A stretch of DNA of 64,000 bases from Methanoculleus frigidifontis. GTDB taxonomy: Archaea; Halobacteriota; Methanomicrobia; Methanomicrobiales; Methanoculleaceae. Location of the stretch: the NCBI RefSeq assembly GCF_030464345.1, contig NZ_VCYH01000006.1, forward strand, positions 124,001-188,000. Reading direction: 5' to 3'. Made by a program: the position numbers and the translations under genes. The notes under the pieces were generated by a model. It was not told the DNA's origin and did no database searches. It saw only the letters and a list, made by a program, of their open reading frames with translations. The first letter of the stretch is position 1. Each line of letters begins with the position of its first letter. Positions 25,231-32,024 of this stretch are shown piece by piece.

Positions 25231-26202
25231 ATGGGAAACCTGAATGTAGCAGTGCTGGCGCCGGAGGGCTATGCCAAAGACCTCGGCAAGAAAGGCACGA
25301 CCTCCGATATCACGTTCTATAATCTCAAGAAAGGTGAGGATACGGTCACCCTCATCGAACCGACCCGCTACCCTGACCGCCTGGCTCCGCTCTTTTTTGC
25401 GGCGTCGATGGCCGACTACGCCATCGTCGTGCTCGACGCGATAACCCCGACCTTCGGCGAATGGGTGCTGATGCTCCAGTCGACCGGCGTTGTGCAGGGT
25501 GCGATCATCCTGAAGAACTACCTGATGCCCGACGCCGTCAGGCCGCTCACCAAGGGGACGGTGCTCGAGGGCTACGAGTTCGTCGAGGAGGACATGATCG
25601 CCATGCGGGAGCGGCTGCTCGACGCGGCTGCGGCGAAAACCCCCGCACCTCCCGATGCAAAGTCGCCGTCCTGCGGCACGGTCTCGATCGATCATCACTT
25701 CAATGTGCGGGGTATCGGCACCGTCGTCCTCGGCGGCGTGGAGCGTGGATACATCAAAAAGCACGATTCCCTGAAGATCTACCCCGGGGAAAAACCGGTA
25801 CAGCTCCGGTCTATCCAGAAACACGACGACGACGCCGATTGGGCTGGTGCCGGCGACCGGGTCGGCCTTGCACTGAAGAACATCGAGGCGGAAGACCTCG
25901 ACCGCGGCTTCGTCCTCTCAAACGACGAGTCGCTGCAGGTCCGTGATACCCTTGAGGCGGAGGCGGCCCTCGTCGCTTACTGGCCGGCGCCGCTCAAGGA
26001 AGGGATGGTGCTCCATCTCGGGCACTGGATGCAGTTTGTCCCGGCGCGTATCGATGCGGTGACCGACGACGGCGACTGGCGACGGCCGCGGCTGACCCTG
26101 ACGCTTGAAAAGGAGATCGTCTCCCTGCCGGGCGGACGTGCGGTGCTGCACTACCTCGACGGCGGGAAGCTTCGTATCGCCGGAACGATCGATCTGCCCT
26201 GA
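25231..26202 (+). CDS. EF-Tu/SelB-like protein lacking a P-loop
   Basis: A 323-residue protein with the outline of a translational GTPase but a degenerate G domain. The N-terminal part (LNVAVLAPEGYAKDLGKKGT, ADYAIVVLDAITPTFGEWV) follows the EF-Tu fold, yet no GxxxxGK[ST] loop is present. Residues about 148-235 read as EF-Tu domain 2 (FNVRGIGTVVLGGVERGYIK, AGDRVGLALKNIEAEDLDRG), and the C-terminus as domain 3. Related EF-1A/SelB-like paralogues without nucleotide-binding residues exist in methanogens; their function is not known to me. It may bind a tRNA or ribosome without GTP hydrolysis. It converges with the mtr operon. Confidence 0.75.
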   Translation: MGNLNVAVLAPEGYAKDLGKKGTTSDITFYNLKKGEDTVTLIEPTRYPDRLAPLFFAASMADYAIVVLDAITPTFGEWVLMLQSTGVVQGAIILKNYLMPDAVRPLTKGTVLEGYEFVEEDMIAMRERLLDAAAAKTPAPPDAKSPSCGTVSIDHHFNVRGIGTVVLGGVERGYIKKHDSLKIYPGEKPVQLRSIQKHDDDADWAGAGDRVGLALKNIEAEDLDRGFVLSNDESLQVRDTLEAEAALVAYWPAPLKEGMVLHLGHWMQFVPARIDAVTDDGDWRRPRLTLTLEKEIVSLPGGRAVLHYLDGGKLRIAGTIDLP

Positions 26203-26417: not shown

Positions 26418-27440
26418 TTAGACCAGCTTGAAGAGCGGGTGGTTCTCGGTCTGGGGCTGGAGTCCGAGCTCCCGGGCTGCCTCTGCAAGGACGATATCGG
26501 AGAACGCGATAGCGGTGGATGCACCTTCACAGTTCTCGATAGGCCCGTACATGATGAGGTCGGCGCCGAGCGTGGCTGCCATGATGTTGCACCCGATATC
26601 GGGGCTCGACCATGCGGCCTGGCGGATACCCTCGAATCCACCGAAGTGGTGGTGCGCCATCTGCTCGAGGAGAAGGTCCTTGCCCTTGTACTGGTCGGCG
26701 AGAACGCTCTTTCTCCAGCGCTTGAGCCACGTCCAGGAGACGGTCATGTTGTGGTAGGCACCGCCGGTCGGCAGTCCGTGGATGGCCTTGCAGGCGAGGA
26801 TCTCACGGAAGGAGCCGCCTGAACCGAGACCGAGCGGGGTTGCCGCGGTGTCGAGAATCGGGCGGGTGATACCGCACTCTTCTGCGATACCCATCATGCT
26901 CTTTTCCTGTCCGGCGACGCCACCTTCGGCGAGCACCTGCTCACGGCCGCGGACGGACGGGTCGCCGGGATTGAATGCAAGGACGATAGCGGCGTTGACG
27001 TCGCTCTCTTTCAGTGCCTGCATGTTCTCCGGCGTGATGGAACCGTTGATCGAGTTGTAGATCGCACGGTCGGCGAGACCGACCTCGGTCACGTACTTGC
27101 AGGCGTGGGCGAGTGCCGCCGGCGCCGACGAGTCCATCAGGAACGCGGTCGTGTTGTCGATGCTGTCGAACCAGCTGAAGTAGCTCTCGAAAGCCTCACC
27201 GTACTCGGCGATGATCTGGATGAAGTGGGGAATTCCGGTGATGTCGGAGAGTTCCTGACAGCGGTTCCAGAGCGCCTCTGCGCGTGCCTTGTCAATCTTG
27301 CCAGTGTGGTCGTCGAGCACTGTCTCGTGCTTGTTATAGAAGATCGATGCACCGAGAACCCGCGGGTATTCGCCAGGCTGCCCACCGATCTTGGTACCGT
27401 TGAAATCAAGTACCGTCTGCTCTTTCTCAAACTTGAACAT
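26418..27440 (-). CDS. mtrH: Tetrahydromethanopterin S-methyltransferase subunit H
   Basis: Soluble methyltransferase subunit that moves the methyl group from methyl-tetrahydro(sarcina)methanopterin to the corrinoid carried by MtrA. The 340-residue protein begins MFKFEKEQTVLDFNGTKIGG and carries the family segments YNKHETVLDDHTGKIDKARA and ILDTAATPLGLGSGGSFREI; the fold is a TIM barrel. It is the last gene of the mtr operon, 14 bases after the MtrA-MtrG fusion gene, and is followed by an oligo-T terminator. Confidence 0.97.
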   Translation of the reverse strand: MFKFEKEQTVLDFNGTKIGGQPGEYPRVLGASIFYNKHETVLDDHTGKIDKARAEALWNRCQELSDITGIPHFIQIIAEYGEAFESYFSWFDSIDNTTAFLMDSSAPAALAHACKYVTEVGLADRAIYNSINGSITPENMQALKESDVNAAIVLAFNPGDPSVRGREQVLAEGGVAGQEKSMMGIAEECGITRPILDTAATPLGLGSGGSFREILACKAIHGLPTGGAYHNMTVSWTWLKRWRKSVLADQYKGKDLLLEQMAHHHFGGFEGIRQAAWSSPDIGCNIMAATLGADLIMYGPIENCEGASTAIAFSDIVLAEAARELGLQPQTENHPLFKLV

Positions 27441-27454
27441 ATTTTCAATCCTCC

Positions 27455-28195
27455 TTACGCAATGCCACCCAGTTTCGGCAGCAATACCAACAACATCATG
27501 AATACAATCAGGCCTGCGACCAGTCCGTACAGGATGCCGATATCGCGGCCGACTTTTCTGCCGACCCGCTGGGCGATCTCTGCATCGACGAATTCGATCT
27601 GCTCTTCGATTGCATCGAGCCTGGACTCGATCTCAAGGAACTGCGGGTTTGCACCTGCAACCGCGCCGCCCATCTCTGCGCCGCCTGCTTCCTTGACCTC
27701 GATGACCATGGGTTCGGCACCGAACGCGCCGGGGTCTTTTGCCGTGAGTTCCTTGATCTTCGCGGAGATCGCACCCATGTCCTCGGATTCCATGATGTCG
27801 ACCATCTCGACCTGTTCCTGGAACCGGCCGATGGCTGCGTCATCAAGGTTCTCGATGAAGGGGATTGCGCCCTGGGCGCCGACGATCTTTCCTCCGGAGA
27901 CACCGCCCGCGTGCAGAGCGATGAAGCTCTGTCCGGAGAGGTGGCCTTTGACCTCGGTTCCACAGTTCAGGACGAACCTGATGTTGGGGTTTGAGATGAT
28001 GTTTGCGATGATCTTCTCAAGACCCAGGTTCTCGGTCTTACAGGAGCCGGCGATTGCGGCTCCTGCATCGCAGATGCCCTGCTCGTCGAGGTGAGATCCC
28101 ATGGTGACGACGGCGACGCAGCTCTGTGGGTCTCCCGTGTGGAAGTCACCCTGAACAATCGGCCATCCGCTGGCTGGAGATTTCTTCTCTGCCAT
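27455..28195 (-). CDS. mtrG: MtrA corrinoid domain fused to MtrG
   Basis: A 246-residue fusion. Residues 1 to about 171 are identical to the MtrA encoded at 28415-29137, including the probable cobalt-ligand His85 in [12 protein letters not shown]. After a Gly/Ala linker (about 174-186), residues about 187-246 are a whole Mtr[21 protein letters not shown], then [13 protein letters not shown] and one membrane helix. It occupies exactly the mtrG position of the operon, between mtrF and mtrH, and no separate mtrG exists here. ATG 28195 follows the mtrF stop by one base. The predicted complex would hold two corrinoid domains per protomer, one on MtrA and one on MtrG. Whether the extra domain binds cobalamin is not known. 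Confidence 0.9.
27684..28195 (-). repeat. Near-identical MtrA-domain repeat, copy in the mtrA-mtrG fusion
   Basis: A 512-base segment matching 28626-29137 at a constant offset of 942 bases. By eye only four bases differ (27704, 27719, 27845 and one near 28187), all at codon third positions, so the proteins are identical here. Such identity beside wholly different 3' ends indicates recent duplication or gene conversion. Confidence 0.93.
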
Positions 28196-28196
28196 G

Positions 28197-28409
28197 TTAG
28201 ATCGCCCCCAGGAGGACTGCCGGCACCAGGATGAACAACATGGCGGCGATGATGCCGACTGCAAAGCCGACGAGACCGCCGCTCTGGATGCCTGACTCAA
28301 GCTTGTTCGTGCGGGCCATAATCTGAGCCTTATAGCGGATGTTGCCCATCGTTCTGTCGATGGCGGCCATCCTGATAGGGCCTGCTGATTTAGTACCTTC
28401 TTCTGCCAC
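28197..28409 (-). CDS. mtrF: Tetrahydromethanopterin S-methyltransferase subunit F
   Basis: Small MtrF subunit, 70 residues: a soluble N-terminal part ([20 protein letters not shown]) and one C-terminal membrane helix ([20 protein letters not shown]). MtrF resembles the membrane end of MtrA and sits between mtrA and mtrG in all known mtr operons, as here. It is five bases from mtrA and one base from the MtrA-MtrG fusion gene. Confidence 0.95.
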
Positions 28410-28414
28410 TTATA

Positions 28415-29137
28415 TCACCCGAGCAATATGAACCCCAGAATGGCGAACGACACGATCAGACCGATCATGAGCCCTTCGATCTTTCCTGCATACACGCCGG
28501 CTGCAAACCTGTCGCGGTATCCGATGTCGGTGACCATCTGCTCGATGATCTTCATGCGGGCATGGATGAGAGCAAGTTCACCGGAGAGCGGTCTGACTTC
28601 ACCGCCGACCTCCTCTTCGCCTGCACCTGCTTCCTTGACCTCGATAACCATGGGTTCGGCGCCGAACGCGCCGGGGTCTTTTGCCGTGAGTTCCTTGATC
28701 TTCGCGGAGATCGCACCCATGTCCTCGGATTCCATGATGTCGACCATCTCGACCTGTTCCTGGAACCGGCCGATGGCTGCGTCATCGAGGTTCTCGATGA
28801 AGGGGATTGCGCCCTGGGCGCCGACGATCTTTCCTCCGGAGACACCGCCCGCGTGCAGAGCGATGAAGCTCTGTCCGGAGAGGTGGCCTTTGACCTCGGT
28901 TCCACAGTTCAGGACGAACCTGATGTTGGGGTTTGAGATGATGTTTGCGATGATCTTCTCAAGACCCAGGTTCTCGGTCTTACAGGAGCCGGCGATTGCG
29001 GCTCCTGCATCGCAGATGCCCTGCTCGTCGAGGTGAGATCCCATGGTGACGACGGCGACGCAGCTCTGTGGGTCTCCCGTGTGGAAGTCACCCTGAACAA
29101 TCGGCCATCCGCTGGCTGGAGATTTCTTTTCTGCCAT
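28415..29137 (-). CDS. mtrA: Tetrahydromethanopterin S-methyltransferase subunit A
   Basis: Corrinoid-carrying subunit of the sodium-pumping Mtr complex; its cobamide accepts the methyl group from MtrH and passes it to coenzyme M. The 240-residue protein has the corrinoid domain (residues 1 to about 172, with probable ligand His85), a Glu-rich linker, and the usual C-terminal helix and membrane anchor ([20 protein letters not shown], later [20 protein letters not shown]). This canonical tail marks it as the true MtrA, in contrast to the fusion copy downstream. Confidence 0.97.
28626..29137 (-). repeat. Near-identical MtrA-domain repeat, copy in mtrA
   Basis: Partner of the segment at 27684-28195. 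The match runs from the ATG through the corrinoid domain and stops at the linker, where one gene continues as mtrA and the other as mtrG. Confidence 0.93.
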
Positions 29138-29148
29138 GTTCTTTCACC

Positions 29149-29433
29149 TCACACAAGTCCGAATACAATGACACCTGCAATCAGCAGGCCGACTGCCATT
29201 CCGTACCAGAATGCGGTCACGCTGCCGGCGATCGTGAGGACGCCCTCTCTGTTCGGGAACGACGCGAGGAAGTTCCCTTCACCGGAGAGCATGCCCACGA
29301 GGTCGTCGGCGATCGTCTCGAGCTCGGCCACCTGGTCGATCACCGGTGCATACGATTCACCGGCGGTGGTAACAAGGCCGATGATCGGGTCTGCGACGAG
29401 ACCGAATTCGGGCAGTACAAGAACGTATCCCAT
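29149..29433 (-). CDS. mtrB: Tetrahydromethanopterin S-methyltransferase subunit B
   Basis: MtrB subunit, 94 residues, a small protein with an amphipathic N-terminal part (VLPEFGLVADPIIGLVTTAG) and one C-terminal membrane helix (GSVTAFWYGMAVGLLIAGVI). It lies between mtrC, which it abuts without a gap, and mtrA. Confidence 0.95.
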   Translation of the reverse strand: MGYVLVLPEFGLVADPIIGLVTTAGESYAPVIDQVAELETIADDLVGMLSGEGNFLASFPNREGVLTIAGSVTAFWYGMAVGLLIAGVIVFGLV

Positions 29434-30285
29434 TTATGCACCTCCCTTCGGCTCAAGGATCGGCTTTGCATCGAGCCATGCGTAGGCATCGCGCTTGGAG
29501 AGCTCGATGTACTTCGCATAGGTGTAGTACCAGCCTGCGACGGAGACCACGAGCGAGATGACCGCCGGGATGAACCCGATGAACGCGAACGACATGACCG
29601 AGATGACGATCATCGAGAGGAAGCCGCACTCTGCAGCGAGCATGAGTGTGCGGTCCTGCTGCTCGCCGGGGCCGAGACAGGCGTTGAACGAGTGCTGAAT
29701 GGCGATTGCACCGAGCATGAAGAGAACGGCAACGATGCTGCCGCCGATGACCGATGCGGCGTACGACTCAACGGTGAACCCGAGGAACGTCGTGGTGCCG
29801 ACGGCGAGGCCGAGGAAGTCGAACGTTCCGCCGACCATGACCGCGAACCCGAGAAGCGTCAGCGCACCGACGATTGCAAGCTCGGTCAGCGACATGATCA
29901 TGACCGGGATGTCCATACGGACGACCTTGTTCGCCAGGAACCCGGCGATGGCGCCGACGATCGCCGAGACGATCAGGGCGACGATCGGAGCGAGGATGCC
30001 GGTCGTGGTTGCAAGCAGCATGGCCACGACACCGGAACCGAGTGCGATCATACCTGCGGAGGGCACACCCGTACCGAGACCGTAGCTGCAGAGGTGCTTG
30101 ATCGTGTCGGTTCCCCATACGAGCGCTGCGACGGCACCAAGGCCGCCGAGGAACGAGAAGACCGTCGTGTCAAAGATCACGTTCAGGTAGGTCAGGTAGA
30201 TGAGCACCAGGGATCCCACGAGGCCGTAGATCAGAATCTGGTTGTGCGGGATTCCGCCTGCACCGACTTCTACTTTCACTGTCAT
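29434..30285 (-). CDS. mtrC: Tetrahydromethanopterin S-methyltransferase subunit C
   Basis: Integral membrane subunit of Mtr, 283 residues with about seven to eight predicted helices. Segments such as GLVGSLVLIYLTYLNVIFDT and AALVWGTDTIKHLCSYGLGT are family-specific. MtrC, MtrD and MtrE form the membrane core through which sodium moves. The gene directly follows mtrD and precedes mtrB without spacing. Confidence 0.96.
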   Translation of the reverse strand: MTVKVEVGAGGIPHNQILIYGLVGSLVLIYLTYLNVIFDTTVFSFLGGLGAVAALVWGTDTIKHLCSYGLGTGVPSAGMIALGSGVVAMLLATTTGILAPIVALIVSAIVGAIAGFLANKVVRMDIPVMIMSLTELAIVGALTLLGFAVMVGGTFDFLGLAVGTTTFLGFTVESYAASVIGGSIVAVLFMLGAIAIQHSFNACLGPGEQQDRTLMLAAECGFLSMIVISVMSFAFIGFIPAVISLVVSVAGWYYTYAKYIELSKRDAYAWLDAKPILEPKGGA

Positions 30286-31128
30286 TTAGAGCACCCCCAC
30301 CAGCATGATTGCAACGATCCCGGTTACGGCGGAAGCGACTGCTGCTGCAATCACTGCACGCGGGAACCGCTTGAACTTGGGGTCGTGCGGGCCTTCGATG
30401 GTACCGGTGATGTTGTATGCTGCCAGAACGGCGTTTACAAGGAACATACCGACTGCGAAGATACCGGCAAGCGAGACTGCCACGGGTGCGATCTCCTCGA
30501 CGGATGCGTTCAGGGTAACGGGGAGAACTTCCTCATAGACCCCGAGGAGCATGAGGTAGATCAGCGTTCCGCCAAGGCCGCCGAGCGTACCGCCGATAAC
30601 ACCGCCAACATAGGAGATGAACGGAAGTCCGTGTCCCTCGGTTCCCTGGCTCTTGTATGCCGGGAATGTGTCGCCCGTGATCGGGTCTTTGTCGACCTTA
30701 CCGGATGCGGCAGGGATACCCATGCCGAAGATGTAGGTGACGTTGACCATGAGACAGGTGATCGCCATCATCAGGCCGCCACCGACTGCGCCGCCGGCAA
30801 GTGCGACGGCGAGGCCGAACTCAGCTGCCCATGCGCCGCCGAAGAGTCCGGCAAGGCCGGCACCGGCTGCGAGCATCGCCACACCGGTAGCGATACCGGG
30901 GGCCTGACCCATTGCAGCGGGAGCACCGCCGACAGGGACGAAGTGGACACCGAAGGCGACCAGAACGCCGCCGATGATGATGCCGATGAGCGCGATGAGG
31001 CCTGCCATCTGAACGACGAAGAACGCGATGGCGAGGGCGATGATGATGAGAACAAGTCCGCCGACGATACCGATTGCGGTTGGCTGCTGAACGCCGCCGG
31101 TCTGTGCGGGTCCGCCGAGTGCGCTCAT
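30286..31128 (-). CDS. mtrD: Tetrahydromethanopterin S-methyltransferase subunit D
   Basis: Integral membrane subunit, 280 residues with several glycine-rich helices (GIVGGLVLIIIALAIAFFVV, GGAWAAEFGLAVALAGGAVG). The soluble loop FGMGIPAASGKVDKDPITGD is typical of MtrD. It overlaps mtrE by four bases and abuts mtrC. It forms part of the sodium-translocating core. Confidence 0.96.
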   Translation of the reverse strand: MSALGGPAQTGGVQQPTAIGIVGGLVLIIIALAIAFFVVQMAGLIALIGIIIGGVLVAFGVHFVPVGGAPAAMGQAPGIATGVAMLAAGAGLAGLFGGAWAAEFGLAVALAGGAVGGGLMMAITCLMVNVTYIFGMGIPAASGKVDKDPITGDTFPAYKSQGTEGHGLPFISYVGGVIGGTLGGLGGTLIYLMLLGVYEEVLPVTLNASVEEIAPVAVSLAGIFAVGMFLVNAVLAAYNITGTIEGPHDPKFKRFPRAVIAAAVASAVTGIVAIMLVGVL

Positions 31129-32024
31129 GCTGCAGCCTCCTCGGTTTCAGTCGTGTAGGGTCCGAAGTTCTTGCGTGCCCAGACCTCGATGTAACGGTCG
31201 ATGACCATGAAGACGAGGATAATGACGACACCAACGATGATCGGTGCCCAGACGTTGAGTTCTTCAAAGACAACGGTACGCCAGAGTTCGAAGAACACGA
31301 TCAAACCGAAACAGACACCCGATGCCGGGCCTCCGAGTTTGGTCGTGAACCAGCCGTTGTCGATGGAGCTCCTCTGACCGGCTTCCGCGTAGCGGACGAT
31401 GTTGCCGGACGCGGAGATCGGAACACCGGCGCCGAACTTCTGTTCCTGGTACTGCCGCTCCTTTCCGTAGAACGGGTTACCGGTTGCAGAGCCGGCTGCA
31501 CCGAGCGCAATACCCCATACGAGGCCGAGCAGCGGCAGCGGGAAGGGGTGCCCGAGTGCGGCGTTCATCAGGTGGCACATCGCTACCGTCGTGAAGATCG
31601 CGACGAACGCATGCGCCATGGTCACGGTGGTTACCGACTTGATGATGTCGATGTACACCGGCTGTCCGAATTTTGCGAGACTTGCGGTACGCCCAAGATA
31701 CGCAGTCGTTGCGTACACACCCTGTACGAAGACTGCAAGGGCGCTCCCGATTACGATTGCAAGAATCGCGTTTATCTGCATCGCCATGAATGCCCAGGCA
31801 ATGCCAGCGCCCAGCGCAACCCAGAGACCGTAGGCGGGCGGTTCACCGGCAACAGCCTTGTTGAAAATACGGTGAATATAGCCCATCTGCGGAGCAAGCT
31901 GAACCTGTGAGTTCGGATCACCCTGTGATCCGATGTCAGACTCAGTGTCCTCCGCAGCGCCGGCAACGGTTGCAAGAGCACCTGCCATTGCGGTAATTCC
32001 GATGCCAAACAATATCTGTTCCAT
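31125..32024 (-). CDS. mtrE: Tetrahydromethanopterin S-methyltransferase subunit E
   Basis: First gene of the mtr operon; membrane subunit of 299 residues thought to carry the sodium path. Signatures include MEQILFGIGITAMAGALATV at the N-terminus, SQGDPNSQVQLAPQMGYIHR, and NPFYGKERQYQEQKFGAGVP. The ATG is preceded by a good ribosome binding site (GGGAGGATG on the minus strand near 32033). It is separated from mcrA by 194 bases that should hold the mtr promoter. Confidence 0.96.
   Translation of the reverse strand: MEQILFGIGITAMAGALATVAGAAEDTESDIGSQGDPNSQVQLAPQMGYIHRIFNKAVAGEPPAYGLWVALGAGIAWAFMAMQINAILAIVIGSALAVFVQGVYATTAYLGRTASLAKFGQPVYIDIIKSVTTVTMAHAFVAIFTTVAMCHLMNAALGHPFPLPLLGLVWGIALGAAGSATGNPFYGKERQYQEQKFGAGVPISASGNIVRYAEAGQRSSIDNGWFTTKLGGPASGVCFGLIVFFELWRTVVFEELNVWAPIIVGVVIILVFMVIDRYIEVWARKNFGPYTTETEEAAA

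Follow-up and report, generated by a model that had tools for sequence, protein, structure and literature searches.

The gene in the mtrG slot of the Mtr operon of Methanoculleus frigidifontis encodes an MtrA corrinoid head fused to MtrG and is a further member of the mtrA-2b kind, already known since 2015. It is likely that it goes back to a single old fusion, that its head and that of the canonical MtrA both act as cobamide shuttles, and that the two are kept alike by gene conversion. In hydrogenotrophic methanogenesis, Mtr catalyzes the step that pumps Na+ and conserves energy. Wang, Chen, Cao and Lou (G3, 2015; PMC4632066) described mtr operons of Methanomicrobiales and Methanococcales in which mtrA is present twice, the second copy being fused to mtrG in Methanomicrobiales (mtrA-2b) and to mtrF in Methanococcales and Methanocella arvoryzae (mtrA-2a). 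In their data, identity of the copies is higher within than between species, the trees pair the paralogues by species, and conversion of the heads is backed by topology tests and GENECONV/RDP. The mtrA-2b survey covered eight genomes, including Methanoculleus, Methanospirillum, Methanoregula and Methanocorpusculum, and is extended here to 81 complete pairs from 23 genera. A survey from 2018 also counts mtrA among the long-lasting concerted genes (PMC6053082). The initial annotation had treated the fusion as an anomaly against a norm of one MtrA; it is instead the published order-wide state of Methanomicrobiales.

In the window, i.e., the whole stretch of 64,000 nucleotides that was analyzed, the operon is located on the minus strand and reads mtrE, D, C, B, A, F, the fusion in the G slot, and H. 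The genes mtrC, mtrD and mtrE (29434..32024), coding for three multi-spanning membrane subunits, were assigned by position and length (ORFs 29434-30285, 30286-31128 and 31125-32024), with the conserved order mtrEDCBAFGH taken from PMC4632066. They are followed by mtrB (29149..29433, 94 aa, Pfam match), by mtrA-1 (28415..29137), supported as an ORF and by Pfam and NCBIfam and encoding a canonical MtrA of 240 aa that has a C-terminal anchor of its own, and by a stand-alone mtrF (28197..28409, 70 aa), which sits between both MtrA copies. The mtrF stop codon lies one base ahead of the ATG of the fusion gene (27455..28195), and mtrH (26418..27440, 340 aa) comes last, with an order-specific insertion of about 26 residues near 245-271. 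The range 27455-29137, to which the fusion was originally assigned, does contain it and also takes in mtrF and mtrA-1. Downstream of mtrH, a 323-aa protein is encoded on the opposite strand (25231-26202), whose sole match is an elongation-factor-Tu domain 2.

The 246 aa fusion ORF is composed of the corrinoid head (residues 1-171), a Gly/Ala linker (about 172-183) and the MtrG anchor (184-246). This composition, proposed earlier, was verified with Pfam matches to MtrA at residues 4-174 (1.2e-84) and to MtrG at residues 184-237 (6e-23), and the protein scores above the NCBIfam cut-offs for mtrA and mtrG alike (TIGR01111 and TIGR01149). The MtrG match is genuine, but the anchor is not the full MtrG that had been assumed: the match begins at position 10 of the 64-position profile and extends over positions 10-63, and the linker stands in for the N-terminal nine or so. 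The C-terminal transmembrane anchor of MtrA is absent, with the MtrG tail in its place. A search of the genome revealed no mtrG besides the fusion, so that the separate intact copy considered initially does not exist here, and the corresponding MtrA search yielded these two matches and no third.

By comparison of the two frames, the fusion head and MtrA-1 (29137-28415) are identical in protein over exactly residues 1-171, with the presumed cobalt-ligand His at residue 85 in both; K53, T54, E55 and the GAIPF meander are likewise present in both heads. Over the first 512 bases the two frames are set apart by four silent third-position changes (bases 9, 351, 477 and 492), and from base 513 onward the linker and anchor of the fusion are unrelated to mtrA-1, in agreement with the initial annotation. 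The repeat search delimited a near-identical core (99%, spacing 942) at 28626..28925 in the mtrA-1 copy and at 27684..27983 in the fusion copy, both on the minus strand. DNA identity of the heads is 99.2% within this genome vs. 89.4% to the nearest other genome, and in the tree the two form a sister pair with a support of 100/100.

For the comparison across Methanomicrobiales, operon regions from another 88 genomes of the order, obtained by an order-wide search and a phylum-wide MtrG search, were analyzed together with the window. Both heads were complete in 81 genomes, which represent 23 genus codes and each of the six family codes in the order, and every one of these 81 pairs shows the order MtrA-1, MtrF, MtrA-MtrG, MtrH. 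In the remaining eight genomes the region runs into a contig end or has N in it, and a stand-alone MtrG with intact upstream sequence could be found in none of the eight. Genomes seemingly devoid of the fusion were rejected as exceptions, as all of them have contig ends inside the repeat, save G166 with runs of N in both heads; in G134 the contig stops within the repeat and the reading frame of the head is broken as well. The repeat breaks short-read assemblies, so that MtrA or the fusion may look missing or truncated in drafts, e.g., G089 and G060. Among the matches listed in the phylum-wide search, MtrG open frames are at most 143 aa long outside the order and, truncated ones aside, about 244 aa or more inside it. 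A linker motif around NPQFLEIE is common to the aligned fusions, which supports a single origin.

Both heads are probably working corrinoid carriers, judging from the constraint on their sequences. The best evidence here for a working fused head comes from lineages in which conversion has lapsed. Eleven genomes (the Methanospirillum-type group g36, g21, g22 and part of g13) carry pairs at 80–84% DNA identity, with a dS of 0.7–1.2 and a dN/dS of 0.05–0.12, indicative of strong purifying selection, and in orthologue comparisons each copy is constrained separately (0.00–0.08). In none of the 81 pairs does either copy deviate at residues D17, H35, K53, T54, E55, G58, N65, H85, A110 and I111. Of these, D17, K53, T54, E55, G58, N65 and H85 are the MtrA cobamide-binding residues of PMC4915002, with a one-residue shift after D17; the roles of the cobalt-ligand His (84 or 85), its Glu hydrogen-bond partner and the Lys-Thr loop follow the same work. 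No paralogue-specific changes at the invariant cobamide contacts were detected in the diverged pairs. Lineages such as Methanospirillum, in which conversion has lapsed, are best suited for studying a division of labour, as their two heads yield distinguishable peptides; in Methanospirillum the heads differ at ~11% of residues.

A content of two corrinoids per protomer, and of six per trimer, can reasonably be inferred and would be consistent with all findings, and the second corrinoid may affect methyl transfer or Na+ pumping. Conservation reflects selection on both heads, from which their simultaneous presence in one complex does not follow; protein, stoichiometry or cobamide measurements of the Mtr complex of Methanomicrobiales were not found in the literature searched. 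If two carriers per protomer are indeed present, the complex represents a natural variant for probing the shuttle movement between MtrH and MtrCDE.

A second head is not needed in general, as the canonical Mtr runs on one. A credible, though less favoured, explanation is gene dosage, in which redundant heads double the corrinoid supply and no new mechanism is involved. It agrees with the interchangeability of the heads and with the parallel MtrA-MtrF fusion in Methanococcales and Methanocella (PMC4632066; L211), but Sarmiento et al. (2013), as far as they are cited in PMC4632066, found both mtrA copies to be essential, which argues against simple redundancy. It is improbable that the fused head serves as structural ballast or stays an apo-domain, with only the MtrG part mattering and conversion preserving the head passively. 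At a copy identity of about 99% conversion alone could preserve the residues, whereas the fused heads of the diverged pairs (dS 0.7–1.2) retain the low dN/dS of 0.05–0.12 and the invariant contacts including His85.

As far as sequence comparison can tell, the heads are homogenised by gene conversion, as proposed initially and as supported by the 81 genomes together with Wang et al. (PMC4632066). Over 170 codons, DNA identity of the heads averages 94.7% within a genome (range 80.4–100%, 81 genomes) vs. 75.1% between genomes, and 14 of the 81 pairs are identical in protein. Exclusive sister pairs account for 52 of 81 in the full FastTree tree, most others falling into small clades of close relatives; in a tree with one genome per lineage the two heads group as sisters in 28 of 30 cases, most of them fully supported. 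A single clade of all fused heads was rejected (p-AU 3e-67). The codon differences between the copies are low and flat up to residue ~150, rise mildly to ~168 and jump at ~169–176, which coincides with the border between head and linker. Near-identity within a genome would likewise be expected from recent duplications and fusions that occurred independently in each lineage, with no gene conversion, but this is highly improbable: position and linker motif are shared and the MtrG tails have diverged in 81 of 81 genomes, which points to a single old fusion, for which Wang et al. also argue (PMC4632066). An assembly duplicate, conceivable for near-identical repeats 942 bases apart that break drafts such as G089, G001, G127, G134, G182, G191 and G044, is excluded for all practical purposes by the same architecture and spacing in the 24 single-contig assemblies among the 81, by the pairs diverged to 80–84% DNA identity, which cannot arise by assembly, and by a fusion tail that is a genuine in-frame MtrG.

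The favoured explanation, an old fusion with two cobamide-binding heads, can be placed in the solved Mtr complexes, in which MtrA, B, F and G form the central stalk with cytosolic N-termini, MtrG being a single-span subunit and the MtrA head being held on a flexible tether (PMC10998594, PMC12774963). Due to the cytosolic N-terminus of MtrG, a head at this position is topologically straightforward and would face the cytosol beside the MtrA head. In the AlphaFold model of the fusion, the head has a high pLDDT, residues 170-183 are below 50 and residues 184-245 form a single long helix; the best Foldseek matches include 5L8X, 5LAA and 9QTR, a confident MtrA fold. In a single event that preceded the radiation of the order, a duplicated corrinoid head would have replaced the short N-terminal part of MtrG. 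Both heads would bind cobamide and carry the methyl groups that pass from MtrH to coenzyme M, which would make two carriers per protomer and six per trimer, provided that the complex takes up the fusion in intact form. The heads would stay interchangeable through DNA conversion between the two closely spaced repeats, the probable reason being that each of them has to fit MtrH and MtrCDE. The MtrH dimer has two active sites per protomer, and MtrA reaching the membrane-distal one was considered sterically unlikely for Methanosarcina mazei (PMC12774963); the second head could serve the second site. MtrH itself is 338–346 aa long in all 86 compared genomes of the order vs. 311–318 aa in 11 relatives outside it, owing to an insertion of about 26–32 residues after about residue 244, which forms two helices in the AlphaFold model. 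Insertion and fusion co-occur, each as one event of shared ancestry.

A gene of the connectase family (PF09894) was found in this genome (G000:C3:70589-71134). The family is distributed patchily (73 of 232 genomes of the order), with at least nine changes on the MtrH tree of the 81 genomes. Cleavage of MtrA by the ligase connectase takes place within KDPGA, between its D and P, at a point that separates head and anchor (PMC10154401), and KDPGA is present at 153-157 in both heads of this genome. Among the 81 genomes, mean head similarity is 0.984 in connectase carriers vs. 0.930 in the others (raw p 2e-6), and 25 of 25 carriers vs. 49 of 56 others have an intact [KR]DPGA in each of their heads. 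The link to head similarity disappeared with independent pairs on the MtrH tree (sign-test median p 1, 1 and 0.625 at three thresholds), and the link to intact [KR]DPGA was likewise lost after correction for relatedness. A more elaborate scheme of six cobamide shuttles, in which the MtrG-borne head serves the membrane-distal MtrH site and connectase may exchange heads between anchors, is rather doubtful as a whole.

Outside the order, further arrangements were observed. In Methanocella sp. PtaU1.Bin125 (L211), an MtrA-MtrF fusion with a head identical to MtrA-1 is adjoined by a second MtrG of 106 aa with an MtrB-like N-terminal arm (L211:5299-5619). The N-terminal arm of MtrB docks MtrH in M. 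mazei (PMC12774963); four genomes of family f24 whose MtrG frames are long showed no MtrB-armed MtrG. In two Methanoxibalbensis/Methanophagales genomes, the single MtrA head bears an MtrF-like tail (L217, 3498-4232; L218 likewise), and an adjoining small gene is weakly similar to the MtrA tail (L217:4293-4511; L218 likewise; E 0.01–0.02), a possible anchor swap judging by these matches. From the arrangements in L211 and L217/L218, corrinoid heads therefore seem to change anchors repeatedly.

In comparison with the canonical Mtr of Methanothermobacter marburgensis (8Q3V) and M. mazei (9QTS), the stalk subunits and the head fold are the same, whereas the canonical complex has a single corrinoid head in each protomer and its MtrG stands alone. 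With mtrA-2a the fusion shares a second MtrA head on a single-span stalk subunit and the conversion that keeps the heads alike; unlike here, the anchor of mtrA-2a is MtrF instead of MtrG, and its origin is independent. With the published mtrA-2b (PMC4632066) it shares the fusion itself, the slot between mtrF and mtrH and the homogenisation of the heads, and nothing about it is different in kind.
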